Shown here piece by piece: positions 1,247 through 47,587 of a stretch of 47,876 nt of DNA. The position numbers and the translations under genes are program-made. The stretch spans positions 1-47,876 of the forward strand of contig JAFYVL010000026.1 of the NCBI GenBank assembly GCA_017549125.1. Reading direction: 5' to 3'. Position 1 is the stretch's first letter; every line of letters begins with the position of its first letter. The notes beneath the pieces are model-generated. The model was not told the DNA's origin and ran no database searches. It saw only the letters and a list, made by a program, of their open reading frames with translations. This stretch comes from Oscillospiraceae bacterium. Lineage in GTDB: Bacteria; Bacillota; Clostridia; Oscillospirales; Oscillospiraceae.

Positions 1247-4045
1247 TTATTTAGTAAATGTACAACCGTTATCAAATTCAATTGTGCCATTGTAGTTTGT
1301 GATAATACCTGTAACGGTAATCAAATCGCCAACAGCCAGGTTTTCAGCACCGGTGCCCTTCAAGCGGAAACACTTGATAGGCATGCTCTCTGCGCCTGCA
1401 ACCGTGATGGTAACGGTGATATTCTGATACTGGGTGCTGTATGCGGTGTCGATCTTGGTGATCGTGCCTGTCAAGGTAGCCTCGTAGGGCAGCTTTTCAC
1501 CGGCAGCCAGTGCATAAGCGGCGGTCAGAATTGCCACAGGATCGGTGGGCTTTGTCTCATTAACGGCGGTGTCTTCCCAGGAATCCAGGGTGCAGCCTGC
1601 ACCGAACTCAATGATACCGGTAGAGCCGTTGTCGTAATTCATCAGAGTGCCGGTAACGGTGATGGTATCACCAACGCCGATCTGATCTGCACCTTCGCCT
1701 TGCAGACGGTGGCACAGGATGGGCTTGTCCTCAGCACCTGCCACAGCGATCACAACACTTACGTTCTGGTACAGAGAACTGTAGGCGGTCTCGATCTCGG
1801 TGATCACACCGGTCAGGGTAGAGGGGGTGCTCATGGTTGAACCGATGACCAGACTGTAGGCCTGCTCAACGATCTGTACCATGTTTTGATCTGCGGAAGG
1901 TGCATCGTTATCTTCTTCCTTCAGAATGTTGCTAACATTCCAGGTCTGTGCGACCGGGTTTGCAAGGATCAGATCCTTCACAGCAGACAGCTGTCCTTCG
2001 GTATACTTGAGGTAATTGTCATTGACAAACTCAATGATTCTGCGCATGGTGGTCTGCTCTGTAACAGACTCAGCAATCACATTGCCCTCGATATCAACGA
2101 CCTGTGCCTTGGCATGGATGATCATCTCTCCGCCGTTATAAGCCAGAATGTTCTTTAAACGCAGAGTGGTAGCATCCTTGGTCACAACGATGTCTTCATT
2201 TACCCACAGGCTGATCTGTACCTTTGCGCCTTCGGGCAGATACTTGGCAACAGCCTTGTAGCCAAGCGCATCGTTCTTGGCATCCAGAGAAATATGGGTC
2301 AGTTCCACGCTGGGTTCTGCAGCACCGATGGTGGTGTAGTAAGTAGTACCACCCTGGTTCTTTACATAGAATCCCAAGGTCTGACCGCCTATATTGATGG
2401 TGGTGCTGGTGTAGCAACGCCAATCCTGTTTGTTGTAGATGCCCAGGTAGCGGCTAGTGCCTACATGCTTCAAATATCCGGAAGCAGAATCCAGCACAAA
2501 GGTCTTTGCACTATCAGTACCGATCTTAACACCCTTGTTTGTGTTGGAACAATACAACCAGTTCGTTGTAGAACCATTGGGGTAGAAAATGTAACCGCTT
2601 GTATTACCGCCGATATTCCACAGAAGGGTGGAGGCGGGATCATCTTGGAGTTTATTGCCGGATACAGTAACTTGGGTAGCGGCAGGTGCATTAGCACCGC
2701 CGTTGTTGGGAAGTGCATATACAGTGCCACCGGAGGTCATGGTAACAACGACTACATCATCCGCGCTGATCTGGGAAATATCGGTCAGAATGTATCCGGA
2801 CTCGCCGCTGCCGCCTTCTGTGTGGCTATACAGAGCGTACAAGGTGATGTCGCCCTTGGCGGTATAGCTGCCGGTATAAACGGTGGGCTTGGTTTCAGTA
2901 TCCTCGGTTGCCTCGGTGACCCAGCCGACAAAGCTGTAGCCCTCAGGAGCGCCGGCGGTGGGCAGAGTAATACCAGACTTGCCACATGCCATAGTCTCAA
3001 TAGCTTCTACGCCTGCAGGCACGCTGAAGGATACGTAGAAGGTCTCACCCAAAGCGTCCACATAGTTGCCTACATAGCTGTCGCCGCATGTGCCACAGGT
3101 ATAGGTGGTGTAGCCTTGCTGGGTAGCAGTGGGAGGCGTGACAACGCTGCTATAGTTATGACCCAAAGCATCTACAACCTCGTGACCGCTGATGTAGATC
3201 TCGCAATCCACGCACTGCACACCGGCAGTAAAGCCGGAAGCAGTACAGGTTGCGGCCACAGCGTTCACATTCTGGGTGTTGTAGTGATGGCACTTAACGG
3301 GGTTGGAGGTGTAATAGGTAGTACCCTTTGCACCATCCTTTACATACAAGGCAATGGCAGCCTGGCTGCTATAAGAAGAAGCCTTGTAGTAACGGAAACG
3401 ATTGTCGTTGGTGTTATACCGCAGATGAGAGGTGTTGCTCACCACATCGGCATTGCCGCTGGCATCAATATTCAAGGTGTTTGCAGCGGCAGTAGAATTG
3501 GTGTTTATCTTGTTTGAGTCGGATGTACCGCTGATATAAGTACCCTTAACGGTCTGGATGGCATAGCCACCGCTGACAGTGGACACGATGAACTTATAAG
3601 GATCGCCGGCTGCAGCAGAAATGGTATTATCTGTAATGGTGACAGTCTTGTAATTGTTCTTGGCATCCAGCGTGCTTAAGCTACTGTCCAGAATAAAGCC
3701 CTTGGTCTCGTAAACGATCAGATATTCACCGGACCAATCATCGGGAGTTTCCGTAACCTTCACATAATCACCGGTACCGGAAGAGGTGTTCTCATCCACA
3801 TAGCTGTACAGGGCGTACAGGGTGGTGTTACCGGTGGGGGTAAAGGAATTGGTGTAGAAGCTGGGCTTTGCGGTCACATCCTCATTCAGGGGAGCAGAAG
3901 TCCAACCCAGGAACTTGTAACCCTCGGGAGCGGTCACATTGGTGGGCAGAGTCATTGCGTCACCGGCATAGCCGTTCTGGCTTGCTACGGTTGCGCCGGA
4001 GAAAGAAACGGTCACAGCAGTCTTGGGTGCGAAGTTAATCTGCAC
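1247..4045 (-). CDS. Surface protein, distal part of an interrupted gene (InlB repeats, shared domain, OB-like repeats)
   Basis: This 932-residue frame begins with an internal GTG that has no ribosome binding site. It is in the same frame as the upstream peptidase gene and separated from it only by one TAA at 4136-4138, so it is best read as the C-terminal two thirds of a ~1,420-residue exported protein. Domains seen: an InlB/Listeria-Bacteroides repeat (residues ~5-83, FLGWTSAP...LYALYS); a lectin- or adhesin-like segment (~92-250); a Cys-pair region (~253-330, CVDCE, CGTCGDSY); a second InlB repeat (~335-408); a further beta segment (~417-570); a domain at ~581-715 that recurs in the protein at 22340; and two tandem OB-like repeats (~720-820 and ~830-932, each with TLTG-ITxIxTAYS, YQN and VGDxITVTG). 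No sortase motif is visible. Role probably adhesion or substrate binding; not assignable further. Confidence 0.72.
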   Translation of the reverse strand: MQINFAPKTAVTVSFSGATVASQNGYAGDAMTLPTNVTAPEGYKFLGWTSAPLNEDVTAKPSFYTNSFTPTGNTTLYALYSYVDENTSSGTGDYVKVTETPDDWSGEYLIVYETKGFILDSSLSTLDAKNNYKTVTITDNTISAAAGDPYKFIVSTVSGGYAIQTVKGTYISGTSDSNKINTNSTAAANTLNIDASGNADVVSNTSHLRYNTNDNRFRYYKASSYSSQAAIALYVKDGAKGTTYYTSNPVKCHHYNTQNVNAVAATCTASGFTAGVQCVDCEIYISGHEVVDALGHNYSSVVTPPTATQQGYTTYTCGTCGDSYVGNYVDALGETFYVSFSVPAGVEAIETMACGKSGITLPTAGAPEGYSFVGWVTEATEDTETKPTVYTGSYTAKGDITLYALYSHTEGGSGESGYILTDISQISADDVVVVTMTSGGTVYALPNNGGANAPAATQVTVSGNKLQDDPASTLLWNIGGNTSGYIFYPNGSTTNWLYCSNTNKGVKIGTDSAKTFVLDSASGYLKHVGTSRYLGIYNKQDWRCYTSTTINIGGQTLGFYVKNQGGTTYYTTIGAAEPSVELTHISLDAKNDALGYKAVAKYLPEGAKVQISLWVNEDIVVTKDATTLRLKNILAYNGGEMIIHAKAQVVDIEGNVIAESVTEQTTMRRIIEFVNDNYLKYTEGQLSAVKDLILANPVAQTWNVSNILKEEDNDAPSADQNMVQIVEQAYSLVIGSTMSTPSTLTGVITEIETAYSSLYQNVSVVIAVAGAEDKPILCHRLQGEGADQIGVGDTITVTGTLMNYDNGSTGIIEFGAGCTLDSWEDTAVNETKPTDPVAILTAAYALAAGEKLPYEATLTGTITKIDTAYSTQYQNITVTITVAGAESMPIKCFRLKGTGAENLAVGDLITVTGIITNYNGTIEFDNGCTFTK

Positions 4046-4135
4046 GGTGCAGTCAGAACTTGCGTTGACGGAGAAACTGTTGCCGTTCTGGCTGACGGTA
4101 GCTGTACCGCTGGTGACAGTAGCGCTCTGTGCAAA

Positions 4136-4138
4136 TTA
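4136..4138 (-). other. In-frame TAA interrupting the peptidase-surface protein gene
   Basis: Minus-strand reading goes AKPATG, TAA, then FAQSATVTSG and on into QINFAPKT without any change of frame. The stop falls where a Tyr codon (TAT or TAC) would complete a GTVSVNGATITAKPATGY-type repeat. There is no second start with a ribosome binding site downstream. Confidence 0.85.
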
Positions 4139-5506
4139 ACCGGTAGCAGGTTTTGCGGTAATAGTGGCGCCGTTCACAGAAACAGTACCGTAAGCGGTGT
4201 TGTTGCTGGTAGCGGTTACCGTGTACTGGCTAAACAGGGTGTATGTAGACTTAACGGTCTGGGTAGAACATGCGCCGTAAGAGGAATCGTTGCTGGTTCT
4301 TTGACCGGGGTGGGTGTCCTCATCGGAAACCACAGTGGGGAAGGCAGAGCGGTACTTCCGTGCCTCGGACAGGGAATAGCCGCTGCCGCTGTAGCCATAG
4401 GAACTGGCAATCGGTTCGGACCAATCCCATTCGCCCCATTTGGATTTCATGGCAGAAATGGATTGCGCCACAGTCTTGCCTGCGATCATATTGTCCCAGA
4501 AGGTTTCCTCGAAGCAGTAGTCGCCGGCAAAGGTAACGGATTGAGAGTATCCATAGACCACCTCTACACCCATATCACGCATAGGCTCGCACATGGTGTT
4601 GGTAGCCATGCCTAGGCAGATAGCCATCCACAGCAGACCACCGGGACTCTTCTTGGTCATGTGGTTGGCGATGGTGGCGCCGTTGATACAAGCGCACATA
4701 TCGCCTTCGCTGTCCGTGAAATACGTGGCGCCGTCGTTGTAGTCCTCGGTAGTTAGACCGGTTTTGTTGGTCAGACACAGGTAAGAGTATTTTGCCTGGG
4801 AAACATAATCGTAAACCTCGTAGCCGTCGGGATCATTGCAAACATACTTACCGTCGTAATCGGTGGTGCCGTGAGAGTCGAAAATGACCACAGCGCCGTT
4901 GCTGACAGCCTCTGCGACTTTGTCTACGGTAACAGAAGTGCCGGAGTACAGGGTGTAGCCGTCAGTGTCGCCAATGGCAGAAGCAATAGACTTGGCTTCG
5001 TTCTTATACTGATCGGTGAAGCTATCGTCGATGCCGTAATAAGGGGCGATCAGATACACCTGATTGCCGGAAGGCCAGCCGCCCTTGGTGGCTTTCGGCT
5101 CGTTGTAGATGCCGGAAGGTTCGGCATTCTTCGGAGCCTGCATGTTTTCGTACTTTTCACGCATGTAGGGGTTGTAAATGCAACGAACGCCTTCCTGGGT
5201 AAACCAGGTAAAGGAATTGCCGTTGCGCTCCAAAGAGCCTTCCACATAGCTCTCGGATGCCATAACGATGGCAGCAGCTTGATCGGCAAGCTCTGTTTCG
5301 CTGGCATTTTTGGTGGCAGGAGCATCTTCCATCTTGCTGATCTGTGCAAACACAGCATCGGCAGATGTGTAATCCTCCTGGGTAAGTACCGTAGGCTCAG
5401 AGTTGGGCGCTGCGGTTGCTTCCTGTGCATACACAACAGGGAGCATGGAAGCTGCCATCACAAGGACTAACAGCAAGGAAAGGGTGCGTTTGAACAGGTT
5501 TTTCAC
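4136..5506 (-). CDS. Secreted caspase-fold (clan CD-like) cysteine peptidase, truncated by in-frame stop
   Basis: Exported protein with a clear signal peptide (start MKNLFKRTLSLLLVLVMAAS, cleavage after VYA). I chose the GTG at 5506 because AAGGAG lies 9 bases before it; the ATG at 5515 abuts that site. The middle of the protein has a candidate catalytic pair of the clan CD type: a hydrophobic strand ending in FDSHG (His near residue 211) and another ending in AICLGMATN (Cys near residue 296). This is motif-level inference; the peptidase family is not named. The frame stops at TAA 4136 inside the sequence GATITAKPATG, but the same frame continues to 1247. As it stands the product would keep the peptidase domain and lose all C-terminal surface domains. 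Confidence 0.72.
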   Translation of the reverse strand: MKNLFKRTLSLLLVLVMAASMLPVVYAQEATAAPNSEPTVLTQEDYTSADAVFAQISKMEDAPATKNASETELADQAAAIVMASESYVEGSLERNGNSFTWFTQEGVRCIYNPYMREKYENMQAPKNAEPSGIYNEPKATKGGWPSGNQVYLIAPYYGIDDSFTDQYKNEAKSIASAIGDTDGYTLYSGTSVTVDKVAEAVSNGAVVIFDSHGTTDYDGKYVCNDPDGYEVYDYVSQAKYSYLCLTNKTGLTTEDYNDGATYFTDSEGDMCACINGATIANHMTKKSPGGLLWMAICLGMATNTMCEPMRDMGVEVVYGYSQSVTFAGDYCFEETFWDNMIAGKTVAQSISAMKSKWGEWDWSEPIASSYGYSGSGYSLSEARKYRSAFPTVVSDEDTHPGQRTSNDSSYGACSTQTVKSTYTLFSQYTVTATSNNTAYGTVSVNGATITAKPATG

Positions 5507-5977: not shown

Positions 5978-6856
5978 ATGGCAATTGAGAAACTCCAGGA
6001 GAAAATTCGCAAGCTGAAAAATCCGTGCGTTGTGGACTTTACAGCGGATTTGTCTCATATCCCGGAATATATTGTGCAGGAGGAGCGGGATTTTGTCCAT
6101 GCATACGGCAGATTCTGCACAGAGTTGTTAGAAGGCTTGGCAGGCAAAATTGCCGGTGTACGGTTTTCTTTCGCCAGCTTTGCGTTGATGGGAAACGATG
6201 GTCTGACACTGCTGTCAAGACTCTTGTCGCAGGCTGAAAATCTGGGATATTACGTGATTTTGGACATCCCCGAAGCGTTGTCTGCTATGGGTGCAACCGG
6301 TATGGCAAACGCTATGTTTGCATCGGAAACGCCCTGGGAATGCGATGGTATTTTAACCTCTGCTTATGTGGGTAGTGATGGCATAAAACCCTGGATTTCC
6401 GGTCTGAAAGAAAGCGGGAAAGATCTGTTTGTTGTCCTGCGTACCGCCAATCGCACAGCTCCTGAATTGCAGGATTTACTCACCGGCGGACGGCTTGTAT
6501 ATATGGCCTTGGCAGACCAGTTAAACCGCTTGGGAACACCCCTTATCGGACGCAACGGATATTCCCATGTGGCGGCGGTGGGCGCGGCATCTTCTGCAGA
6601 TTGTTTGCGAAATTTACGTACCAAATATCCGGGTATGTTCCTGCTGATCGACGGCGCAGATTACCCTAACAGCAACATTAAAAACTGCAGTTTTGCCTTT
6701 GATCGCTTGGGTCACGGTGCTGTCGCCTGCATGGGTGTCAGCGTCACAGCCGCATGGAAAAACGAGGAGTCTGACGGGGAAGATTATGTAGAAGCCGCCT
6801 GTAAATCCGTAGATCGCATCAAGAAAAACTTTGCCCGATATATTACCATTCTGTAA
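5978..6856 (+). CDS. Degenerate orotidine 5'-phosphate decarboxylase (PyrF) homologue
   Basis: A 292-residue protein with the plan of the longer (type 2) OMP decarboxylases: an N-terminal strand with CVVDFTADL, then YYVILDIP where the catalytic loop should be, then LTSAYVGSDGIKPW (the family has TVSPYLGxDSLxPF) and LFVVLRTAN (family VFVLxxTSN). The catalytic Lys-Asp tetrad, normally DxKRGDIG, is absent: the loop reads LDIPEALSAMGATG. The phosphate-binding GAT/APGxGAQGG region near the C-terminus is also changed (FLLIDGADY). So the fold is likely kept and decarboxylase activity is unlikely. Start ATG 5978 follows AAAGGAGGGGC. The gene stands alone, without other pyr genes. Function unknown; a regulatory or ligand-binding role is possible. 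Confidence 0.72.
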   Translation: MAIEKLQEKIRKLKNPCVVDFTADLSHIPEYIVQEERDFVHAYGRFCTELLEGLAGKIAGVRFSFASFALMGNDGLTLLSRLLSQAENLGYYVILDIPEALSAMGATGMANAMFASETPWECDGILTSAYVGSDGIKPWISGLKESGKDLFVVLRTANRTAPELQDLLTGGRLVYMALADQLNRLGTPLIGRNGYSHVAAVGAASSADCLRNLRTKYPGMFLLIDGADYPNSNIKNCSFAFDRLGHGAVACMGVSVTAAWKNEESDGEDYVEAACKSVDRIKKNFARYITIL

Positions 6857-7745: not shown

Positions 7746-7813
7746 TTGTATTTTTAGCACCCAGAAAAACGAAAAATATTGAGAAAATTACAAAAAATTT
7801 CACTCTGTAACAA

Positions 7814-7842
7814 TTGCATATTTTCTTTCTTTATGTTATAAT
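7814..7842 (+). promoter_or_regulatory. Sigma-A promoter upstream of murB
   Basis: TTGCAT (7814-7819), 17-bp spacer, TATAAT (7837-7842). It is the only strong promoter seen ahead of the twelve-gene run that ends at 22087. Confidence 0.78.
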
Positions 7843-7873
7843 GTATAGGATAATACTCCCGGAGGCTTTTAGC

Positions 7874-8782
7874 ATGGAATTTACAGATTTTCAGTTACAA
7901 ATAAAAACAATGCTCCCGGAGCTGGAGCTTCGCTTTAATGAGCCTATGTCCAAGCACACATCCTTCCGAATCGGCGGTGGTGCAGAGGTCATGGCATTTC
8001 CGAAAAATCCCGAGGAACTGGCAAAATTGTTGCAAGTGTCCCGATTATTGGACTGCAAAACCGCTATCCTGGGTGCAGGTACCAATGTGCTGGCACCGGA
8101 TGCCGGTATTCCCGGCTTGGTGATCTGCTTGAAGGATGCGCTGGATGGCATCCGTCAGCTGGATGACACTCGGATCTGGGTGGCTGCCGGTGTGACCATG
8201 ACCCGTGCAGCGGTGTTTGCGGCAGGTCTTGGCCTGGGCGGCATGGAGTTTGCCCACGGTATTCCCGGTACTGTAGGCGGCGGTGTGTATATGAATGCCG
8301 GCGCATACGGCGGTGAAATCAAGGATATCTGTGAGAGCGTGGAGGCTATGTCTTTGGATGGCTCGATCCGTACCTTGACCTGTGAGGAAATGGAATTTTC
8401 CTACCGACACAGCTGCCTGGAAGAAACCGGTGACATTGTGATCGGTACTGTGTTCCGTTTGACACCCAAACCCGAGGCAGAGATCCGTGCCCAGATGCAG
8501 GATCTGATGGAGCGTCGTAAGACCTCCCAGCCCTTGGATAAGCCCTCTGCAGGTTCTGCTTTTAAGCGTCCTGTGGGCGGCTATGCCGCAGCCCTCATTG
8601 ACCAGGCTGGTTTGAAGGGCTACCAGGTGGGTGATGCAGCTGTTTCCAGTAAGCATGCAGGCTTTGCGGTCAATATGGGTCAGGCCACCGCAGAGGAAGT
8701 AAAGCAGCTTCTGCAGGAAGTGTCTGACAAAGTTTTTGAAAATTCCGGAATTCGTTTAGAGCCGGAGGTTCGTATTTGGTAA
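7874..8782 (+). CDS. murB: UDP-N-acetylenolpyruvoylglucosamine reductase
   Basis: NADPH- and FAD-dependent reduction of UDP-GlcNAc-enolpyruvate to UDP-MurNAc, the second committed step of peptidoglycan precursor synthesis in the cytoplasm. Family motifs seen in order: KHTSFRIGGGAEV (N-terminal FAD domain), AILGAGTNVL, GIPGTVGGGVYMNAGAYGGE (flavin contact), YRHS, and the catalytic Ser region KPSAGSAFKRP. Length 302 residues is normal. Start ATG 7874 follows CCGGAGGC. whiA begins 18 bases after the stop; the rapZ and yvcK genes that often lie between them in Firmicutes are not here. Confidence 0.96.
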   Translation: MEFTDFQLQIKTMLPELELRFNEPMSKHTSFRIGGGAEVMAFPKNPEELAKLLQVSRLLDCKTAILGAGTNVLAPDAGIPGLVICLKDALDGIRQLDDTRIWVAAGVTMTRAAVFAAGLGLGGMEFAHGIPGTVGGGVYMNAGAYGGEIKDICESVEAMSLDGSIRTLTCEEMEFSYRHSCLEETGDIVIGTVFRLTPKPEAEIRAQMQDLMERRKTSQPLDKPSAGSAFKRPVGGYAAALIDQAGLKGYQVGDAAVSSKHAGFAVNMGQATAEEVKQLLQEVSDKVFENSGIRLEPEVRIW

Positions 8783-9712: not shown

Positions 9713-12700
9713 GTTTTGTACATTTGCATGTCCACTCTGAGTATAGTCTGTTGGACGGTGCTTGCCGAATCAGTTCCATGATGGATCGGGTCAAAGAGTT
9801 GGGACAAACTGCCATTGCTCTGACCGACCACGGTGTCATGTATGGCTGTATCGACTTTTATAAGGCCGCCAAGGCCGCCGGCATCAAGCCCATCATCGGC
9901 TGTGAAGTCTATGTGGCTCGCCGGGGCATGGAGGATAAAGTTCACGGCATTGATAATAAACGCTATCACTTGGTTTTGCTTTGCGAAAACCGTAAAGGCT
10001 ATGAAAACCTGTGTATGTTGGTCTCCGAAGCCCACAGCCGTGGTTTTTACGGTAAACCCCGTGTGGATCTTCAATTGCTGGAGCAATACCATGAGGGCTT
10101 GATCGCTCTGTCTGCCTGTTTGGCAGGCGGTGTGTCTCAGCGACTGATGGATGAGGATTATGAGGGCGCAAAGGAATATGCCTTGAAAATGGCAGATATC
10201 TTTGGACAGGATCATTTCTATCTGGAAATGCAGGATCACGGCATTGATAAGCAGCGTTTTGTGAACCAGGGTCTGATGCGTATGGCACGGGAAACCGGCC
10301 TGCCCTTGGTTGTCACCAACGATGCTCACTACCTGCGTAAAGAGGATGCCCAGATGCAGGATGTACTGATGTGCGTCCAGATGGGTACTACCTTGGATGA
10401 TCCCAATCGTAAGCTGGAATTTGAAACCGAGGAGTTCTACCTCAAAAGCGAGGATGAACTTCGCCAGTTGTTCCCACACTGCGACGAAGCCTTTGAAAAT
10501 ACCCAGCGAATTGCTGATCGCTGCAACCTGGAATTTGTTTTTAACGAATACCATTTGCCCTCGTTCCCTGTACCGGAGGGCTATACCAATGAGGAATACT
10601 TCCGCAAGCTGTGTATGGATGGCTTCCGGGAGAGATATCCCCACCAGCCGGCAGAGTATTTGGAGCGGCTGGAGTATGAGATCGGTGTTATCAGCCGTAT
10701 GGGCTATGTGAACTACTATCTCATCGTATGGGACTTTATACGCTTCGCCAAGGAATCCGGCATCCCCGTAGGACCTGGCCGTGGTTCCGGTGCAGCATCT
10801 ATCGTAGCCTACTGTATGCATATCACAGAAGTCGATCCCATGCAGTATGCGCTGATTTTTGAGCGATTCCTAAACCCCGAGCGTGTGAGTATGCCCGACT
10901 TCGATACGGACTTCTGCCAGGAGCGCCGTGGAGAAGTGATTGAATACGTGGTGGAAAAATACGGTGCTGACCATGTGGCGCAGATCGTAACCTTCGGTAC
11001 GATGGCAGCCCGTGGCGCCATCCGTGATGTGGGTCGTGTGCTGAATTTCAGCTATGCGGAAACCGATGTGGTTGCAAAGCTTGTGCCCACCACCTTGCAT
11101 ATCACCTTGAAGGAGGCTTTGGAGGTCTCTCCCAAGCTGAAGGAGATGTATGATGCCGATGAGCGTGTTCGCACACTCATTGATACGGCCATGAAACTGG
11201 AAGGTATGCCCAGAAATACCTCCACCCATGCTGCCGGTGTGGTGATCACCGCTGACCCTGTGTGCAGTTACGTGCCTCTGGCACGTAACGATGATACCAT
11301 CGTTACCCAGTACACCATGACCACCATCGAAGAATTAGGACTTCTGAAGATGGACTTTTTGGGCCTGCGAAACCTGACGGTCATCAAGGATGCTCAACAG
11401 CAGATCCGGAAGATCAATCCGGAATTTGATATCGATCTTGTGCCGGATAATGATCCGGAGACCTTCGCTATGCTGGCGGAAGGTAAGACCCAAGGTGTGT
11501 TCCAGTTGGAATCGGCAGGTATTACCGGTGTCTGTGTGAACATGAAGCCCACCTCCATCGAGGATATGACGGCTATTGTGGCACTGTACCGTCCCGGCCC
11601 TATGGATTCCATCCCCACATTTATTGCCAATAAGCAAGATCCCAGAAAGATCACCTATAAGACGCCTCATCTAGAGCCGATCCTGCAGGTGACCTACGGA
11701 TGTATCGTTTACCAGGAACAGGTTATTGAGATCTTCCGTAGCTTGGGTGGCTATACCATGGGACAGGCGGATAACATCCGTCGTGCTATTTCCAAAAAGA
11801 AGATGAAGGTGATCGAGGCAGAGCGTAAAGTCTTTGTCTACGGTGATCCGGCCCAGAACATTCCCGGTGCTATGGCCAACGGTGTTACCGAGGCGGCCGC
11901 CCAATCCATCTATGATGAGATCGTAGAATTTGCCAATTATGCATTCAATAAAGCCCACGCTGTGAGCTATGCAGTGGTATCTTACCAAACCGCGTATTTG
12001 AAATGTCACTATCCCCACCAGTACATGGCGGCACTGATGACCTCAGTGCTGGATTCTGCTACCAAGATCTCCGGTTATATTGCCGAGTGTAAAGAACTGG
12101 GCATCCCGGTGCTTCCTCCGGATGTGAACCACTCCGTGGACAATTTTGCGGTGGAAGGCAATGCCATTCGTTTCGGCCTTGGTGCTGTAAAAAATGTGGG
12201 CAGAGGCTTGATCCGTTGCATGGTGCATCACCGAGAGGAAGGCGGTCCTTTCCGTTCTCTGGAAGACTTTCTGCAGCGCATGGGTGAAGGCGAGATCAAT
12301 AAGCGAGCTGTGGAAAACTTCATCAAATGCGGTGCGATGGATTGCTTTGGCAACCATAGAAGCGAGTTGCTGGCGGTATATGATTCCATGATGGACAGCA
12401 TTGCCAGTTCCCGTAAGAAAAACCTGGATGGTCAAATGGGTCTGTTTGGAATGCTGGAGGAAGAGGATGCCGGAGTATCCATTCCCATTCCCAGTATGCC
12501 GGAACTGCCCAAGGCTGAGATGATGCTCATGGAGAAGGAAACCACAGGTATCTACCTGTCCGGTCATCCCATGGATGACTATCGTGGTTATCTGAAAAAT
12601 ACCCATGTGGTAGCCATCGGTGCGCTGATGGACGAGGAGTCCGGTTACCAGGATGACCAGATTGTTAGCATAGCCGGTGTGGTGCAGTCCGTAAAAATGA

Positions 12701-41305: not shown

Positions 41306-41343
41306 CGCCAATTGTGTCCAAGGGGAAATGACATTAAGTTAAG

Positions 41344-41383
41344 TGTCATCGCGAACCAGTGCGCACACTGGTGTGGCGATCTC
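41344..41383. repeat. GCGAACCAGT-type palindromic repeat
   Basis: GTCATCGCGAACCAGTGCGC then ACACTGGTGTGGCGAT: inner stem CCAGTGCGCACACTGG, outer ATCGC/GCGAT. Same family as 1089 and 28043. Confidence 0.75.
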
Positions 41384-41402
41384 CTGTGAACGATCTTTCA
41401 CC

Positions 41403-41738
41403 GTAGGGAACGCCTTCGTAGGGGACGGGTCTCCCGTCCCATTCAATCTTATTTCGATGCGTCATTGCAAGCCACGCCCCAGTCATGTCCCCCTCTCGGA
41501 GGGGGATGTCAGCGATAGCTGACAGGGGGAGTGCACTCTGTTATTTTGCACCATCATTACACCAACCCATGTAGGGAACGCCTTCGTAGGGGACGGGTCT
41601 CCCGTCCCATTCAATCTTATTTCGATGCGTCATTGTAAGCCACGCCCCAGTCATGTCCCCCTCTCTGAGGGGGATGTCAGCGATAGCTGACAGGGGGAGT
41701 GTGCTCTGTTATTTTGCACCATCATTACACCCACCCAT
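41403..41738 (+). repeat. 168-bp tandem duplication
   Basis: Two adjacent copies, 41403-41570 and 41571-41738, differ at only a handful of bases. Each unit contains GTAGGGAACGCC, a GGGACGGGTCTCCCGTCCC stem, a GATGCGTCATTG segment, and a TCCCCCTC...GAGGGGGA stem with the GTCAGCGATAGCTGAC palindrome. A third start of the unit at 41739 leads into a different repeat. Confidence 0.85.
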
Positions 41739-41880
41739 GTAGGGAACGCTGTCCCCAGCGTTCCAAAACCTTCCCCTTTGGGGAAGGTGGCTCGCAGAGC
41801 CGGATGAGGTAATACCTTCCCCTTTGGGGAAGGTGGCACGAAGTGCCGGATGAGGTAACTATGGGAAGGTAGCCCCCCAA
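41738..41880 (+). repeat. Further repeats: palindrome and 46-bp tandem pair
   Basis: 41738-41764 is the TGTAGGGAACGC...GCGTTCC palindrome. Then CCTTCCCCTTTGGGGAAGG occurs twice with a 46-bp period (41769 and 41815), each followed by a GGCTCGCAGAGCC- or GGCACGAAGTGCC-type stem and GGATGAGGT. No coding sequence is seen between 41306 and 42053. Confidence 0.75.
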
Positions 41881-42053
41881 GGGGCATACGACCCCTGTTA
41901 TCGTAGAGGGGAATATCCTCCACACACCCTATATAACCCTAAATCCCCCTGCTTAAAACCACATATTGGGTTAAAATGAAAATCACAACCACAAAATCTG
42001 TATAAGGAATGAAAAGAATGCGTAAAATAATTTAATTTTTCGTGAAATTATGG

Positions 42054-42259: not shown

Positions 42260-43993
42260 ATGAAGCGTTTAATTTCCTGGCTCTTGGCCCTGACCCTGAT
42301 TTTCGGTCTGGTTCCCATGAGCGCATTCGCAGTCGAAGTCAATCTCGATGGCTCCTATGACGAAGATGTCGAATTCGGCGAACTGCTGCCTGGCTACACT
42401 GAGGCCAATCCTATTGACCTGACCCAGGATCTGCTGTACGAAGGTGACTTCACCGCAACCGTTACCGTTCCCGCTGGCACTACCCTGTACTACTGTGCAT
42501 ACCGTGTTGGTGGTATGATCATGACCATCAATGGTGGCGCAGCTGTAGAGTGTGTTGCCGCAAGTCCTTGGGTTCCCTATGCATGGTCCATCACCAATGA
42601 CGGCGCTGCTGATGCAGAGTATGTTATCGTGATTGCTGCTCCCTTGGGCTCCATGGACAACCCCGCTACCCTGACTCTGGGTGAGAACAATGCTACTGTA
42701 GCAGCTGATGCTCAGGGCTATTTCTACACCTACACCGCAGAGCAGACCGGTACTTTGGTACTGGAGTTTGCTTCCTCTGTTGACGGCTGGAGCTACACCG
42801 TCAACAACATGACCACCTATAAGTATGGTGATACTCAGTGGTCTGACTCCGATCCCGTTGTTAACCCCGCTGAGATCGAGGTTACCGAGGGTGACGAAAT
42901 TGAGGTTATCGTTAACACCTACGATCCTGCTAACATGTGGGGTTCCCCCGCTGGCACCGTGACCGTCAAAGCTTCCTACAAGACTGAGGAGCCCGCTCCC
43001 GAGTACAATGTTGTTACCAATGGTTATGGTCTGTCTCTTGAGGCTGAGCTGGTCGTTTCCGCTAAGTTTGTGATTCCTCAGGAATTGAAGAACGATCCCA
43101 ACGCTACCATTACCATTCAGTTCATTGATAATGTGACTGAATATAATCTGCAACAGTATGCAGCTGAGAACGGTGGCTATGACAGTAAGAATCGTATCGT
43201 GGTTAAGCAATCTGTAAGATCTCCTTGGATGCCTCATCTCGTTAAGGTTACTATCTGTGATGGAAATGGCAATGCAGCAAACTACACTGACTATTTTGGC
43301 GAAACATTTGAGGGCGCATATGAGTTTGGTGCTGAGACCTATGTTAAGTTGACAACTGTTGCTAATCCTGGTAAGACTACCATTGATTGTGTTCGTGGCT
43401 TGTTGACTTATGGTGCATATGCCCAGGACTATTTTGAATCTACCGGTAAGATTCCCAATATTCCCGAAATGCGTGCTACTGAGATCCTGACCAAGTATGG
43501 TTATGAGCCCATGGACATTTCTCAGTTCTCTTCCGACCTGCTGAATCAGGCTCCTACCTCCTCTGGTGATAGCTTCGATGGCATTTCCAGCCGTGGTGTA
43601 GCTAACCCTGTTCTGGAAGCTGCTATTTACATGACCTTCCAGTTCAATGCTACTGGCATTACCGAGGCGGATATTGGTAATTATACTTATAAGCTGAGCT
43701 ACATGTCCGGTAATACCTTGGTTGAGAAGGATATTACTCCCACTTGGGATGCTCGTGGCAGACTGGTATTTACCATTACTGAGATTGCTGCGATGTACTT
43801 TGACTGCATGTACTCCGTAACTATTACCAAGAATGCTACCGGTGAGACCTATACCGCTGCTACTAGCGTTGTTGCTTACATGGATGTTGCATTTGATACC
43901 TATGAGGGTGTTGCTTCTCAGGCTAAGTTCCTGGATTTGCTGAAGGCTATGTATTATTACAATCAGGCCGCAAATACCCACTTTGGCAAGTAA
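42260..43993 (+). CDS. Secreted surface protein of unknown function
   Basis: A 577-residue exported protein; signal peptide MKRLISWLLALTLIFGLVPM with cleavage after SAFA (~24). Residues ~50-135 and ~135-235 hold two related beta domains of the pre-peptidase/PPC kind (ATVTVPAGTTLYYCAYRVGG; AADAQGYFYTYTAEQTG). After a Pro/Glu linker (EEPAPEY) come two further domains; the region near 380-400 has CVRGLLTYGAYAQDYF, a motif I associate with other Clostridial surface proteins. No sortase motif or membrane tail is seen. It has a promoter and leader, and no terminator before the 37-aa peptide gene 60 bases downstream, so both are probably on one transcript. Confidence 0.7.
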   Translation: MKRLISWLLALTLIFGLVPMSAFAVEVNLDGSYDEDVEFGELLPGYTEANPIDLTQDLLYEGDFTATVTVPAGTTLYYCAYRVGGMIMTINGGAAVECVAASPWVPYAWSITNDGAADAEYVIVIAAPLGSMDNPATLTLGENNATVAADAQGYFYTYTAEQTGTLVLEFASSVDGWSYTVNNMTTYKYGDTQWSDSDPVVNPAEIEVTEGDEIEVIVNTYDPANMWGSPAGTVTVKASYKTEEPAPEYNVVTNGYGLSLEAELVVSAKFVIPQELKNDPNATITIQFIDNVTEYNLQQYAAENGGYDSKNRIVVKQSVRSPWMPHLVKVTICDGNGNAANYTDYFGETFEGAYEFGAETYVKLTTVANPGKTTIDCVRGLLTYGAYAQDYFESTGKIPNIPEMRATEILTKYGYEPMDISQFSSDLLNQAPTSSGDSFDGISSRGVANPVLEAAIYMTFQFNATGITEADIGNYTYKLSYMSGNTLVEKDITPTWDARGRLVFTITEIAAMYFDCMYSVTITKNATGETYTAATSVVAYMDVAFDTYEGVASQAKFLDLLKAMYYYNQAANTHFGK

Positions 43994-44053
43994 TTATTTT
44001 GTGATCATTTATTTTTAAATATTTGATTAATTCTATAAAGGAGGTAAGAAATT

Positions 44054-44167
44054 ATGTTCGCACCTGAAATGAAGATTGAGAAGTTTGATCTGGTTGATGT
44101 TATCACCACTTCTATCACTCCCGATGCTTGCACTGATGATGCAGCTCTGCCCTGCCTGGCTGACTAA
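44054..44167 (+). CDS. Candidate RiPP precursor peptide, 37 aa
   Basis: Very short gene with a near-perfect ribosome binding site (AAAGGAGGT, 8 bases before the ATG) and an intrinsic terminator 15 bases after the stop. The product begins MFAPEMKIEKFDLVDVITTS and continues ITPDACTDDAALPCLAD. The first ~17 residues are charged and leader-like; the last ~20 hold two Cys, four or five Thr and one Ser, which are residues that YcaO and radical SAM enzymes modify. It is in one unit with the secreted 577-aa protein and faces the radical SAM/YcaO genes, whose coding region ends 190 bases away. Seen: gene signals and composition. Inferred: precursor role. It could also be a short secreted-protein companion or a regulatory peptide. 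Confidence 0.6.
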   Translation: MFAPEMKIEKFDLVDVITTSITPDACTDDAALPCLAD

Positions 44168-44182
44168 TTTATTTGGCAAAGC

Positions 44183-44211
44183 AACCGAGCCGTTTGGCTC
44201 GGTTGTTTTTT
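44183..44211 (+). terminator. Intrinsic terminator after the peptide gene
   Basis: Perfect 9-bp stem AACCGAGCC (44183-44191) with GGCTCGGTT (44196-44204), GTTT loop, then six T (44206-44211). Confidence 0.9.
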
Positions 44212-44246: not shown

Positions 44247-44293
44247 CCATAATAATTAGGGTCAGGCTTACTGCCTGACCCTAATTATTATGG
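44247..44293. repeat. Perfect 21-bp inverted repeat
   Basis: Arms 44247-44267 and 44273-44293 are exactly complementary over 21 bases with a 5-base loop (TTACT). It sits between the convergent peptide and radical SAM units. It has no T run, so it is not a standard terminator. Confidence 0.85.
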
Positions 44294-44356: not shown

Positions 44357-45670
44357 TTAGTTGTTCTTTTTATATGTGTATATCATCATTTGTTGCGTTT
44401 TAGTATAGGTAGAGATTATATGTTGAGGATAGCATTTTCCAAGGGTACTACACTTTTTGAGCATAATACATTCAGGGTAGTAGAAGCAATTAGTACATTC
44501 TGGAATTTCCTTTGTGGTTTCCCCCCACGATTTAACTACATGCTCATCAAAATGCTCTGAGTCGATATGTCCTATATATTCACTATCGCTGTAGTGTTCA
44601 CATAATCCAATGTTTCCATCAGGGAGGATTGTGACGGAACGTCCGCTGTCTGCCATACAGTGGTATGTTTTGAATTTTGTTGAAATTGAATTCACTCTGG
44701 TGAAATTGTGTTGATCAATTACAGCTTCAATTCGTGCCATAGCTTCGTTGCGTAATTTCCATTCCTGTTCAGAATGCAGTTCTGCATTTGATGTGTTTAG
44801 ATCAAATAGATGATGAGCATAAATGAATAGATTGTTGTATCCTGCAAATTTATTACATAAATACTGAGTTAGGGATAATAAATCAGATGCATTATATACA
44901 TCCATGTTTAGACGTATTGTGAGTAAAGTATTGGTATCTAATAAACGCTGAATATTGTTAATCACAATTTCAAATGGATTATCTTCAGCATTAACATAGG
45001 CCTTGACTTTATTGTAGACTTTTTCTGTTCCGTCTAAGGTGATTTGAACCTCCTTTAGATTCCACAACTCTACAGCTTTCTTAGCAGCATCTTCGTTAAA
45101 TAGGTATCCGTTAGTAACCATAGAGGAATTGAAGGTAATTCCTTCATCTCGTAATCCTTTGCATATCGTATCTATTGCATCCTGGTTCATTAGCGGTTCG
45201 CCACCAAACCATCTTATTGTTACCTTTTTGCCTGCACAGTGATCCTTTATATATTTCACTACTTTTATTGAGGTTTCGTGACTCATTGGGGTTCTAGAAC
45301 GTCCCGCTTCAAAGCAATAAAAACATCTTGCGTTGCAATCTGTAGTAGTAAAAATAGTGTAACCGGTTATCTTTTTGAATTTTTGTTTTTTTCCTCTAAT
45401 AAGAGACTTTAGTAAATCAACATATGACTTTTCATCACATTCTTCTGGGACAATGAACCATTGATTTCTAAGTAACTCGTTTTCTGTAGCATTTTCAAAC
45501 TCTTCCTTGCTTAGTAAGACAAGCTCTCTAGTTAATAAATTAAAAAGTAGAATGCCATCATCAACCTCGGCTTCTACAAGGTATTTTAGTTTTCGATAGT
45601 TTGCCCCTTGCTTCTTGAAGCCAGCTAGCATCTGCAAAACTGTACTGTTCGCAGGTGATATGACTTTCAT
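44357..45670 (-). CDS. Radical SAM/SPASM peptide maturase
   Basis: A 437-residue enzyme. The N-terminal ~100 residues (KYLVEAEVDDGILLFNLLTR) look like the substrate-recognition part seen before many peptide-modifying radical SAM enzymes. The [4Fe-4S] motif CNARCFYC has Cys112, Cys116 and Cys119. WFGGEPLMN and VTNGYLF are core motifs. The C-terminal SPASM region has the cysteine series in LPDGNIGLCEH, CTNCFYYPEC and LKKCSTLGKCYP, for auxiliary clusters. Start ATG 45670 is chosen for AAGGAGTG 7 bases ahead; a GTG at 45679 is weaker. It follows ycaO on the same strand by 99 bases, so they form an operon. AT-rich compared with the housekeeping genes. The peptide substrate is not proven. Confidence 0.85.
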   Translation of the reverse strand: MKVISPANSTVLQMLAGFKKQGANYRKLKYLVEAEVDDGILLFNLLTRELVLLSKEEFENATENELLRNQWFIVPEECDEKSYVDLLKSLIRGKKQKFKKITGYTIFTTTDCNARCFYCFEAGRSRTPMSHETSIKVVKYIKDHCAGKKVTIRWFGGEPLMNQDAIDTICKGLRDEGITFNSSMVTNGYLFNEDAAKKAVELWNLKEVQITLDGTEKVYNKVKAYVNAEDNPFEIVINNIQRLLDTNTLLTIRLNMDVYNASDLLSLTQYLCNKFAGYNNLFIYAHHLFDLNTSNAELHSEQEWKLRNEAMARIEAVIDQHNFTRVNSISTKFKTYHCMADSGRSVTILPDGNIGLCEHYSDSEYIGHIDSEHFDEHVVKSWGETTKEIPECTNCFYYPECIMLKKCSTLGKCYPQHIISTYTKTQQMMIYTYKKNN

Positions 45671-45700
45671 ATTCTTCACTCCTTGACAATATATTATTTA

Positions 45701-45769: not shown

Positions 45770-47587
45770 TCAATACGTGAATTGTGCCTTGTTTTGTCCT
45801 TCCGCAAATTCACCATATTTTTGTCCTGCAGCATACAACATGTTTTTACACTCTGTGTATGTGCAGTTAGATTTATTGGCACAACCGCCACAATTGGATG
45901 GATCACAGTTGAGCAAGTAACGATCATACGGAGTTTGATCCGTGCCGAGGGATTCGTATAATGTCTCAACTATTTCTTTGTTAAAGAATTTGTTCAGAAT
46001 TACACGTATTTTTTCTTCGTCAATTTTAGTGGCTTTGAACTTTAAATACATTTTGATACAAGCAAAGTACTGCTTCTTGTTGTTGTCAAGGAATTTAAAC
46101 TGCAGGAATTGCTCGATGTATCTGATCGCCTCATTATAATTCCCTAGACGATAAGATGCGTAGGAAAGTGTTGGCAATAAATAATGTAAACCTGTTGACC
46201 AATTTAGAGGGATACCGGCCAGCATGGCAAAATTATTCCGATGATTAAGGACGGTTTGGATTTTTTTATAAAACATCAGCAGGATCGAAAGATCATTATC
46301 GCTTGCTTTTATAGGATTCTTGAATACCTTTGCTGCAATATCGGCAAGTGCATATTCCTGAAGAGTCTCATTTAATCGGAAGGATCGGGATTCTGAGAAT
46401 CCGGGGACGATAAATTTGTAGCAGGGGAAGCCCAGGAAAGAGTAGTTTCTTATTAATACAGGCTTGTTAAGTTTTTTGTAATAATCCAGCACATCGGACA
46501 ACAGTTCATCGTTTGTTTTTCCACTATGATCCTCGAATTCGGTGCATTTCTTTTTGCAGGTCAATTCTTCAGCAAAGAAGTCTACTGCAAACATGCCATT
46601 GCCGGTTTCTAAAAGATTCAGTACATTATGCGCCACAGGGAAATCTGTTATCTTACTGAGGATTTGCGCACATCCATTTGCTGTAACTGTTTCGATGTTC
46701 CGTCCTTGCATAATCTCGGTGAGTGTTCTTTGAATTGCGATTTCCAGAATGGGATCAGCACCTGTATTGACAAGATAGGTCTGTGTATCCTTGTTAATGA
46801 TTCTGGTAGAAATAACCGGAATTCCGTATCCGCATGAGAAATCGAAAATCTTTACGTCCAAATTGGGATATGATCTGATCTTTTTGAGAATTTTTTGTAC
46901 AGTAGGGAATTTCTGCAGAACTTCCTCCGGGATCTCAGGGGCAGATTCACCATTGATTAATGTTGCAATATTGCCTTTTCTTTCCATGATTTCAGACAAG
47001 GCATGTACCCATGCTTCTGCCTTGGTATTACCCACGCAGCATCCGTTTGCAGAATACATATGTTCGGCAAAGCCTGCAGGCATATAGACGTACTTGTCTT
47101 CAAATAAATTATAAAACGGGATGGTTAGGATTTTATCTTCCTGTGTGCAAGCGTACATTTTACACTGTTGTGCAATCTTCTCGCGTGTTAGTCCATTTCC
47201 GTAGGACTCAATTAAATAATCCATCCATTCGCCATTTTCAATAAGCTCCTTAACTGTCATATACTTTTTATCAGGAGCATACGTATGCAGATTTAATGCA
47301 TCATCCGCCTCAATAGACTGATATTTATAAAAGAACAGTCCGCTTTGCAAGCGTTCCATAAATTCGCCATAAGCACTTGCGCGAGCAAACTCTTTTGTAA
47401 TGCCTTTTCCGTTTGAAGAAGGCTGTTGCATCCCCTTTATGTGACAAGTCAGACTCCAGCAGTTTTCAATGCCGGAATCGTGCCAGTTTTCTTCAAGCTC
47501 AATGCCTAAATCACTTAAAATAGTAATAATCTTATTAACGGTTTTTTCCGGGGATTCTTCTTTGAATTTTTCGTCTATATACTGCAT
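45770..47587 (-). CDS. YcaO-domain protein with helical repeats and C-terminal Cys cluster
   Basis: A 605-residue ATP-dependent YcaO enzyme. YcaO proteins activate a peptide amide with ATP to make azoles, thioamides or amidines. The ATP/Mg site is intact: SNGKG (58-62), GEFMER (Glu75, Glu78), VHALSEIMERKG and RTLTEIMQGR. Length and order resemble the stand-alone E. coli YcaO, including the segments SDLGIELEENW, YMPAGFAEHMYSANG and the PEIPEEVLQKFP stretch, followed by a TPR-like helical region (~440-545). Unlike that protein, as I recall it, the C-terminus carries CDPSNCGGCANKSNCTYTEC (~568-587), six Cys that could hold a metal or iron-sulfur cluster. ATG 47587 follows AGGAGGAGG. First gene of the ycaO-radical SAM operon. 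Confidence 0.87.
   Translation of the reverse strand: MQYIDEKFKEESPEKTVNKIITILSDLGIELEENWHDSGIENCWSLTCHIKGMQQPSSNGKGITKEFARASAYGEFMERLQSGLFFYKYQSIEADDALNLHTYAPDKKYMTVKELIENGEWMDYLIESYGNGLTREKIAQQCKMYACTQEDKILTIPFYNLFEDKYVYMPAGFAEHMYSANGCCVGNTKAEAWVHALSEIMERKGNIATLINGESAPEIPEEVLQKFPTVQKILKKIRSYPNLDVKIFDFSCGYGIPVISTRIINKDTQTYLVNTGADPILEIAIQRTLTEIMQGRNIETVTANGCAQILSKITDFPVAHNVLNLLETGNGMFAVDFFAEELTCKKKCTEFEDHSGKTNDELLSDVLDYYKKLNKPVLIRNYSFLGFPCYKFIVPGFSESRSFRLNETLQEYALADIAAKVFKNPIKASDNDLSILLMFYKKIQTVLNHRNNFAMLAGIPLNWSTGLHYLLPTLSYASYRLGNYNEAIRYIEQFLQFKFLDNNKKQYFACIKMYLKFKATKIDEEKIRVILNKFFNKEIVETLYESLGTDQTPYDRYLLNCDPSNCGGCANKSNCTYTECKNMLYAAGQKYGEFAEGQNKAQFTY

Follow-up and report, generated by a model that had tools for sequence, protein, structure and literature searches.

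A 37-residue peptide of an uncatalogued leader family as the probable precursor of a radical-SAM-modified product in an Oscillospiraceae bacterium

The small ORF at positions 44054-44167 (plus strand) of the window, as we call the whole stretch of 47,876 nt that was analysed, probably encodes the precursor of a radical-SAM-modified peptide, which belongs to an uncatalogued family and would depend on a module encoded in trans and act at the cell surface with a 577-aa protein. According to this proposal, the SPASM enzyme encoded opposite the peptide gene would recognise the leader (residues 1-20) and would most likely form thioether bonds from Cys26 and Cys34 to residues close by in the core, presumably in a chemistry of the ranthipeptide or sactipeptide type. 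Further steps would probably take place in trans, with the products of HPr-kinase-like (HPrK-like), PqqD and signal-peptidase-like (S26-like) genes, which this genome carries on a different contig. The product would then act with the presumably co-transcribed 577-aa protein at the cell surface; this protein has a signal-peptide-like start, and it harbours a duplicated C-terminal domain (CTD) common to proteins encoded upstream of many related peptides. The bond type, the order of the steps, the export and the function of the peptide system are what we infer in this scheme, whereas the ORF, its leader family, the joint conservation of enzyme and peptide, the link of Cys cores to the enzyme, the presence of the module in the genome and the CTD linkage are observed. 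An earlier, sequence-only reading of this DNA is partly supported by our analysis: a modified-peptide precursor linked to a radical SAM enzyme is upheld, and so is the surface protein as a partner, but not the YcaO as a part of the system. The precursor belongs to a peptide family of wider extent, which is connected with a trans module and with secreted proteins.

The peptide gene and its leader family

The ORF starts with ATG and was recognised by direct reading, by homology and with a profile; its translation is MFAPEMKIEKFDLVDVITTSITPDACTDDAALPCLAD. A Shine-Dalgarno sequence, AAAGGAGGT (44037-44045, plus strand), can be read directly 8 nt before the start codon. On the 3' side of the ORF a terminator-like hairpin of 9 bp (44183-44204) is followed by a T run (44183-44211 for the whole element, plus strand). 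Together with the homology described below, these signals confirm the first claim of the sequence-only reading, namely that this is a peptide gene with strong expression signals and its own terminator. Between the two converging units lies a 20-bp inverted repeat (44247-44293, no strand assigned), which is possibly a two-way terminator. In another intergenic region of the window (approximately 41340-41930) near-identical units, CCTTCCCCTTTGGGGAAGG, GGGGGATGTCAGCGATAGCTGACAGGGGG and others, were seen by eye to be repeated.

We take the 37-aa ORF to be a real gene mainly on homology, i.e. on the match to the peptide of locus L152 and on a profile of 36 related peptides. With the L152 peptide as the query, the ORF was retrieved with E = 8e-8 from the 571 window ORFs of at least 25 aa, and the runner-up had E = 1. 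The profile, from which the peptide of the window was left out, gave 31.0 bits for the ORF and 5.4 bits for the next ORF of the window. A chance ORF, or a regulatory leader ORF without a peptide product, would agree with the shortness of the reading frame and with the finding that a strong Shine-Dalgarno sequence is present at four small ORFs (28-69 aa) of the window, the 37-aa ORF being just one of them. However, the leader is kept at the protein level in 37 aligned peptides while the cores diverge, and the best of 20 triplet shuffles reached only 8.9 bits with the same window-free profile. We therefore consider this explanation practically negligible.

Within the peptide, residues 1-20 (MFAPEMKIEKFDLVDVITTS) would form the leader and residues 21-37, with Cys26 and Cys34, the presumed core; the putative border between them was placed by conservation. 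Residues 18-37 contain two Cys (26 and 34), one Ser and four Thr, in line with the composition reported previously. The peptide used as a sole query matched only itself in 200 genomes of the same family. A profile of the leader family was built from this peptide and four peptides at loci of radical SAM relatives in genomes of the order, and at E <= 0.1 it detected the family in 75 of the 295 genomes sampled from the order, with no more than 12 places in any one genome. The leader pattern that the sequence-only reading had named (APEM..FD..DVITTS) belongs to a real family. Sixty of these places, mostly top-ranked, were fetched for further analysis, and the five seed peptides are outside the 60.

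The consensus of the family leader is (F/Y)xxPEMx(I/V)xxFxxxDVITTS, followed by a variable core that contains the two Cys in the peptide of the window. The closest peptide, MFVAPEMKVVEFDVVDVITTSFCEEDCPLQVDCSSQLPVF at L152, is 56% identical to it. In the alignment of 37 peptides the leader is conserved and the cores differ widely; a leader with a Cys-bearing core, as required of a radical SAM/SPASM thioether RiPP, is found here, with Cys26 and Cys34 in the window. At L162 (approximately 10259-10801) the family peptide has a core that is repetitive and contains Cys, GGCVLDGQCVLDGQCVLDGQC..., and it is a candidate substrate for several cross-links.

Scans of the 37 peptides yielded no Pfam or NCBIfam model that would fit the family. 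Stray matches of single members had E values of 0.008-0.07 in Pfam and of 0.03-0.09 in NCBIfam, the latter including one lasso and one thiazolylpeptide model. The DVITTS leader motif occurs in no paper of the library searched, and the family was not described among the matches listed in searches on HPrK/PqqD/S26 clusters, on ranthipeptide mining, on radical SAM enzymes together with YcaO, on small proteins with radical SAM enzymes, on related radical SAM families, or on RiPPs and S-layer homology. The family is best read as uncatalogued and RiPP-like, its members being RiPP precursors with a conserved leader and a variable core. It is common in the order, since it occurs in about a quarter of the sampled genomes (the 75 of 295 above), often in several copies. 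Leader, maturase, trans module and surface protein make up a defined set which could be expressed in E. coli.

The radical SAM enzyme and the neighbouring YcaO

The probable cognate maturase is encoded at 44357-45679 on the minus strand. This radical SAM/SPASM enzyme of 440 aa matches PF04055 above the cut-off, and the three Cys of its CxxxCxxC motif (C115, C119 and C122) as well as seven further Cys (C341, C360, C395, C398, C404, C410 and C416) are invariant in 40 aligned sequences. The SPASM model PF13186 gave 16.5 bits, which is under its cut-off of 21.5. The enzyme is also under the curated cut-offs of all maturase models listed (TIGR04463, 125 of 525 bits; NF047865, 90 of 340; NF038107, 118 of 600; TIGR04334, 96 of 600), and it is therefore classed here as a probable peptide maturase of the SPASM type, in a subfamily without a name. 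With the best curated match at only 125 of 525 bits, there is no characterised orthologue that would fix the bond type.

Relatives of the enzyme (E <= 1e-40) are present in 5 of the 295 order genomes, own genome counted. At three of the other four loci a short peptide with the same kind of leader is located upstream on the same strand; the fourth locus starts at a contig end. L015 harbours two leader peptides upstream of the enzyme gene, with an HPrK-like gene between the peptides and the enzyme. A single enzyme sequence used as a query over the GTDB contigs gave no match, and an alignment of five members gave 158 relatives, the best 80 of which were kept, corresponding to 79 loci (among these, L159 is on the same contig as L015). 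These best 80 of 158 relatives originate from Oscillospiraceae, Ruminococcaceae, Clostridia, Lachnospiraceae, Faecalibacterium, Atopobiaceae and Bacteroidales, mostly as MAGs, and gut or rumen is the sample source in many cases.

A family peptide (E < 1e-3) was found within 1.5 kb of the radical SAM ORF at 45 of the 79 loci of the best 80 of 158 relatives. In total these loci contain 50 peptides near the enzyme gene and two that are far from it. This agrees with the proposal of the sequence-only reading that a new modified-peptide precursor lies beside a radical SAM maturase. At the remaining 34 of the 79 loci no peptide was found within 1.5 kb, and none was detected near the enzymes of L150, L151, L153 and L154, which are among the closest relatives (52-54% identity).

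The presence of the enzyme goes together with the type of core. Cys residues in the last 20 aa are present in 49 of the 50 peptides near a radical SAM gene versus 2 of the 60 peptides sampled by their leader (Fisher p = 1e-27, kinship ignored). One of these two exceptions belongs to L080, the only locus among the 60 with a radical SAM-like ORF, which lies 92 bp downstream of the peptide. The two ORFs of L080, for the distant radical SAM-like protein (phmmer E = 1e-5) and for the Cys peptide (3335-4783 and 4875-5051, minus strand), are accompanied by HPrK-like, PqqD and S26-like genes, and perhaps a second radical SAM lineage serves the same leader there. The sequence-only reading had named a wide occurrence of the family without the enzymes as an argument against itself. 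Such an occurrence is real for the leader family as a whole, which by far exceeds the close radical SAM relatives in number of genomes (75 versus 5 of the 295), but not for the members with a Cys core, which go with the enzyme.

In the window the peptide gene and the radical SAM gene are convergent and thus not on one strand, and this opposite orientation had been considered the main weakness of the first reading. We do not regard it as a real weakness, because peptide and enzyme are encoded on one strand in the close relatives L149, L152 and L155, and because enzyme and peptide are conserved together, with the Cys cores going with the enzyme. At L152, where the enzyme is 53% identical to that of the window, the peptide gene precedes the radical SAM gene, and HPrK-like, PqqD, S26-like and ABC genes follow; the same row on one strand is present at L149 and L155. 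Based on these comparisons, the facing enzyme is probably the cognate maturase of the 37-aa peptide.

The second gene of the facing pair encodes a YcaO protein of 605 aa (45770-47587, minus strand; PF02624 above the cut-off), which resembles YcaO of E. coli and has a TPR-like C-terminus. It is separated from the radical SAM gene by 90 bp, and both genes are on the minus strand, so that the peptide gene indeed faces a YcaO-radical SAM pair as noticed earlier. This arrangement, in which the two genes may share a transcript, would suit a YcaO-dependent RiPP, with the YcaO making azolines or thioamides in a Thr/Ser/Cys core and the radical SAM enzyme serving as a second tailoring enzyme. The core with its Cys and Thr, and Ser20 closing the leader, would suit it as well. 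However, YcaO was found beside the radical SAM gene at none of the 79 loci of the best 80 of 158 relatives (26 of the 79 having less than 2.5 kb on at least one side), at none of the four order relatives, and nowhere in the stretches covered of 184 rescanned loci except in the window itself. YcaO genes are present in 3 of the 200 family genomes, own genome counted, and no radical SAM gene lies beside the three other YcaO loci of these genomes, one of which is cut by a contig end. Among 15 genomes with radical SAM relatives that were searched, two have a YcaO, located on other contigs. We therefore judge a YcaO-dependent RiPP to be very unlikely, and the assignment of the YcaO to the system by the sequence-only reading is not upheld. 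From the expected co-occurrence of the leader peptides with the enzyme pair, the radical SAM part stands (45 of 79 loci) and the YcaO part falls (0 of 79).

In YcaO-type RiPP systems the partner proteins are F-/E1-like, SagB or TfuA; no gene for such a partner was noticed in the window, which stops 289 bp upstream of the YcaO start. Further features of the YcaO argue against a part in the system. Its last 60 residues contain the Cys motif CDPSNCGGCxxxxxC, a possible metal site, which recurs in a similar form in two of three aligned stand-alone YcaOs. The best equivalog-type match is the E. coli YcaO model NF040716, with a similar length and a similar TPR-like C-terminal region, although the score is 230 bits and the cut-off 700. 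PMC13063428 reports that E. coli YcaO thioamidates the ribosomal protein uL16. The YcaO of the window is 30-33% identical to the other YcaOs of the family. We treat it as a neighbour of the radical SAM gene, possibly a local addition.

The secreted protein, the trans module and shared tails

The gene upstream of the peptide (42260-43993, plus strand) encodes a protein of 577 aa with a signal-peptide-like N-terminus and two copies of the CTD, the first at residues 281-393 (43100-43438, plus strand) and the second at the C-terminal residues 448-577 (43601-43990, plus strand). It ends 60 bp before the peptide ORF and no terminator-like site is present in between, which supports the shared transcript suggested by the sequence-only reading. 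The CTD profile matches it with E = 6e-35, the protein being one of the 11 seeds. No Pfam family was found for the 577-aa protein at E <= 1, and for the 21 CTDs scanned there was no convincing family match (best E = 0.007, in one of the 21). Whole proteins encoded upstream of other peptides barely resemble the 577-aa protein (best E = 0.0075); the CTD alone, usually in two copies, is common to several of them, and their lengths are very different.

A signal-peptide protein is encoded within 250 bp upstream of the peptide at 36 of the 60 leader-sampled loci versus 38 of 229 background genes (p = 1e-10; signal peptides called by a simple hydrophobicity score). Five of the 24 misses are cut by the contig start and three lack an upstream ORF. 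For the peptides linked to a radical SAM gene (42, i.e. the 45 loci from the best 80 of 158 relatives minus three with the peptide on the other strand), the gene directly upstream encodes a CTD protein in 16 cases and another protein in 21; it is truncated in five. This lends weight to the idea, already put forward in the first reading, that the surface protein is a partner. The CTD occurs in 31 of the 295 genomes, and the peptide family is present in 27 of these 31 versus 48 of the 264 others (phylogeny ignored), or in 19 of 23 versus 48 of 264 when the eight seed genomes are left out. The 577-aa protein is likely the partner of the 37-aa peptide, judging from this linkage.

Twenty CTD matches outside the known loci were also inspected. 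A peptide at E < 1e-3 is encoded directly downstream in five of them and a weak one in one; four have a C-terminal extension instead, five have neither, and five could not be judged. Several CTD proteins without a detected downstream peptide (L244-L247) have a short acidic tail ending in W, e.g. DETEISVW, which in the case of G352 resembles IVEDEDETGILPW, the core of a peptide encoded in that genome.

The wider leader family is mostly without a radical SAM gene, and yet it tracks the HPrK-like/PqqD/S26-like module. In the genome of the window contig C35 carries these three genes next to each other, and C62 has another HPrK-like gene. The HPrK-like gene (E <= 1e-50) was found in 79 of the 295 genomes, namely in 64 of the 75 with the peptide versus 15 of the 220 others (phylogeny ignored), and without the 14 seed genomes the numbers are 50 of 61 versus 15 of 220. 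The tested PqqD genes, including that of the own genome, are above the PF05402 cut-off. For the leader-binding part (RRE or PqqD-like) that goes with a radical SAM/SPASM thioether RiPP, the candidate is this separate PqqD gene, seen in the related gene rows and on C35. The labels HPr-kinase-like and S26-like express similarity based on motifs and weak family scores: the HPrK-like protein has what we take to be a P-loop in 15 of 15 aligned copies and an N(D/G)DKP motif in 14 of 15, with weak matches to TIGR04249 and TIGR00679, and the S26-like protein has weak signal-peptidase-I matches only. Since at L149, L152 and L155 the radical SAM gene is followed by HPrK-like, PqqD and S26-like genes, with an ABC exporter in the same gene row, steps in trans by these proteins are probable in the genome of the window.

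NTP_transf_5 was considered as a module marker and rejected. It is present in 60 of the 75 peptide genomes versus 45 of the 220 others, and the three copies of the own genome (G000 contig C21; L109 8706-9884 and L110 10-2009) are in what looks by eye like a polysaccharide cluster; therefore the HPrK-like gene was taken as the marker.

At some loci the cores themselves recur in envelope proteins. At L083 an SLH protein (3909-5048) and the peptide (approximately 5238-5348, minus strand) both end with EGDNGTGWG. At L112 an SLH protein (7805-8692) contains DNDIADPWG, the end of the peptide at 6484-6609, the own end of the SLH protein being different; further proteins of this locus end with DEGWSGIY, DDGWTGIY or DAGYSGIY. 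The core also recurs in an envelope protein at L015 (ELPII), L223 (EDELEEF / EDMLEEF) and L101. At L056 (8472-9509, 345 aa) the frame of an SLH protein runs without a stop into a complete leader-core sequence, and a good Shine-Dalgarno sequence precedes the inner ATG: a natural fusion or an overlap.

A permutation test was performed on 89 loci, with the genes having been rescanned in 184 loci. The best tail match within a locus averages 17.21 versus 15.18 (sd 0.37) with permuted peptides, and none of 5000 permutations reached the real value; when the three best loci were left out, 3 of 5000 did. In this test own frames and module genes were masked, and similarity in composition inside one genome was uncontrolled. 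An LP tail motif near the C-terminus was weak, occurring in 10 of 83 signal-peptide proteins near the module versus 15 of 507 elsewhere (p = 0.001) and in 11 of 128 peptides. An earlier count over 129 of the 184 loci had given 9/74, 10/368 and 7/73, with 512/10018 for control small ORFs. The motif was dropped in favour of the permutation test.

The recurrence of a core at the end of envelope proteins, S-layer-anchored ones among them, suggests a role at the surface. This is not predicted for a free bacteriocin, and neither are CTD proteins of very different length upstream of the peptides. A classic bacteriocin or signal, i.e. a modified peptide exported in free form with the secreted protein being incidental or an immunity or receptor protein, would be in line with the ABC exporter in the related gene rows and with the fact that SPASM-modified Cys peptides are often antimicrobials; in view of the CTD proteins and the tails we regard it as unlikely. 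Somewhat better chances, though still below even, can be given to the possibility that the peptide serves chiefly to assemble, anchor or export the CTD protein, its core being a surface tag which the modification stabilises or activates. The excess of signal-peptide proteins upstream (36/60 versus 38/229), the co-occurrence of the CTD with the peptide family across genomes and the tails common to envelope proteins, several of them with S-layer-homology domains, speak for such a role. On the other hand, the own genome has the CTD on four contigs and only one family peptide, only 5 of the 20 CTD matches outside the known loci have a peptide at E < 1e-3, and a search of the own genome, which is 71.5% complete and has the window as one entire contig, did not find a tail partner for the core of the window.

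It is tempting to speculate on a tail-code system, in which CTD proteins, envelope anchors (SLH proteins, lipoproteins, membrane proteins) and peptides would carry matching short C-terminal sequences, and the peptide would link the CTD protein to the wall or licence it there. The HPrK-like/PqqD/S26-like module would modify the peptide, joined by the radical SAM enzyme when the core has Cys; the RiPP would be a structural tag and not an antibiotic, and the window would represent the radical-SAM variant. Taken as a whole this is doubtful. The CTD and the shared tails do no more than hint at such a tagging of the wall with peptides. If the preferred reading, a radical-SAM-modified peptide acting at the surface with the 577-aa protein, holds with respect to the surface link, gut Clostridia would employ RiPP chemistry for structural purposes, and it could be tested what the many orphan peptides and CTD proteins are used for.

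Relation to known systems

TIGR04463, a model of radical SAM/SPASM RiPP maturases, is the best NCBIfam match of the window enzyme and is matched by 40 of 40 aligned enzymes at E <= 1e-20; the window enzyme differs by its score far under the curated cut-off (125 versus 525 bits). The PapB family NF047865 is matched by 36 of the 40 at the same threshold, but here the window enzyme reaches only 90 of 340 bits. The SynChlorMet system resembles the trans module in that a P-loop protein and a PqqD relative occur together, and ScmC (TIGR04249) and ScmD (TIGR04248) are the best NCBIfam matches of the own HPrK-like and PqqD proteins (E = 5e-7 and 9e-7). However, these proteins are far under the cut-offs, with 29 of 125 bits for ScmC and 29 of 100 bits for ScmD, and the cassette was compared by model names.

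PMC7533575 describes lasso clusters of rumen bacteria that include HPr-kinase-like, PqqD-like B1 and nucleotidyltransferase genes. The lasso PqqD models weakly match the PqqD proteins found here. The Tyr-x-x-Pro of the family leader resembles the lasso leader motif. Lasso peptides depend on genes for a lasso cyclase (Asn-synthetase-like) and a B2 protease, but when the listed ORFs of the module loci were looked through by eye, neither a lasso cyclase nor a B2-type protease was recognised.

There is also a likeness in design to the ranthipeptide-type SPASM maturases, which show a comparable Cys pattern and act on a small leader-core precursor with a Cys core. At E <= 1e-10 the profile of the radical SAM enzyme matched 5WGG/5WHY as the only solved sequence (E = 2e-22 over 123 profile positions), and we take 5WGG to be CteB. 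Unlike in those systems, the precursor family described here has no Pfam or NCBIfam model, and it is tied to a CTD protein and to the HPrK-like/PqqD/S26-like module.
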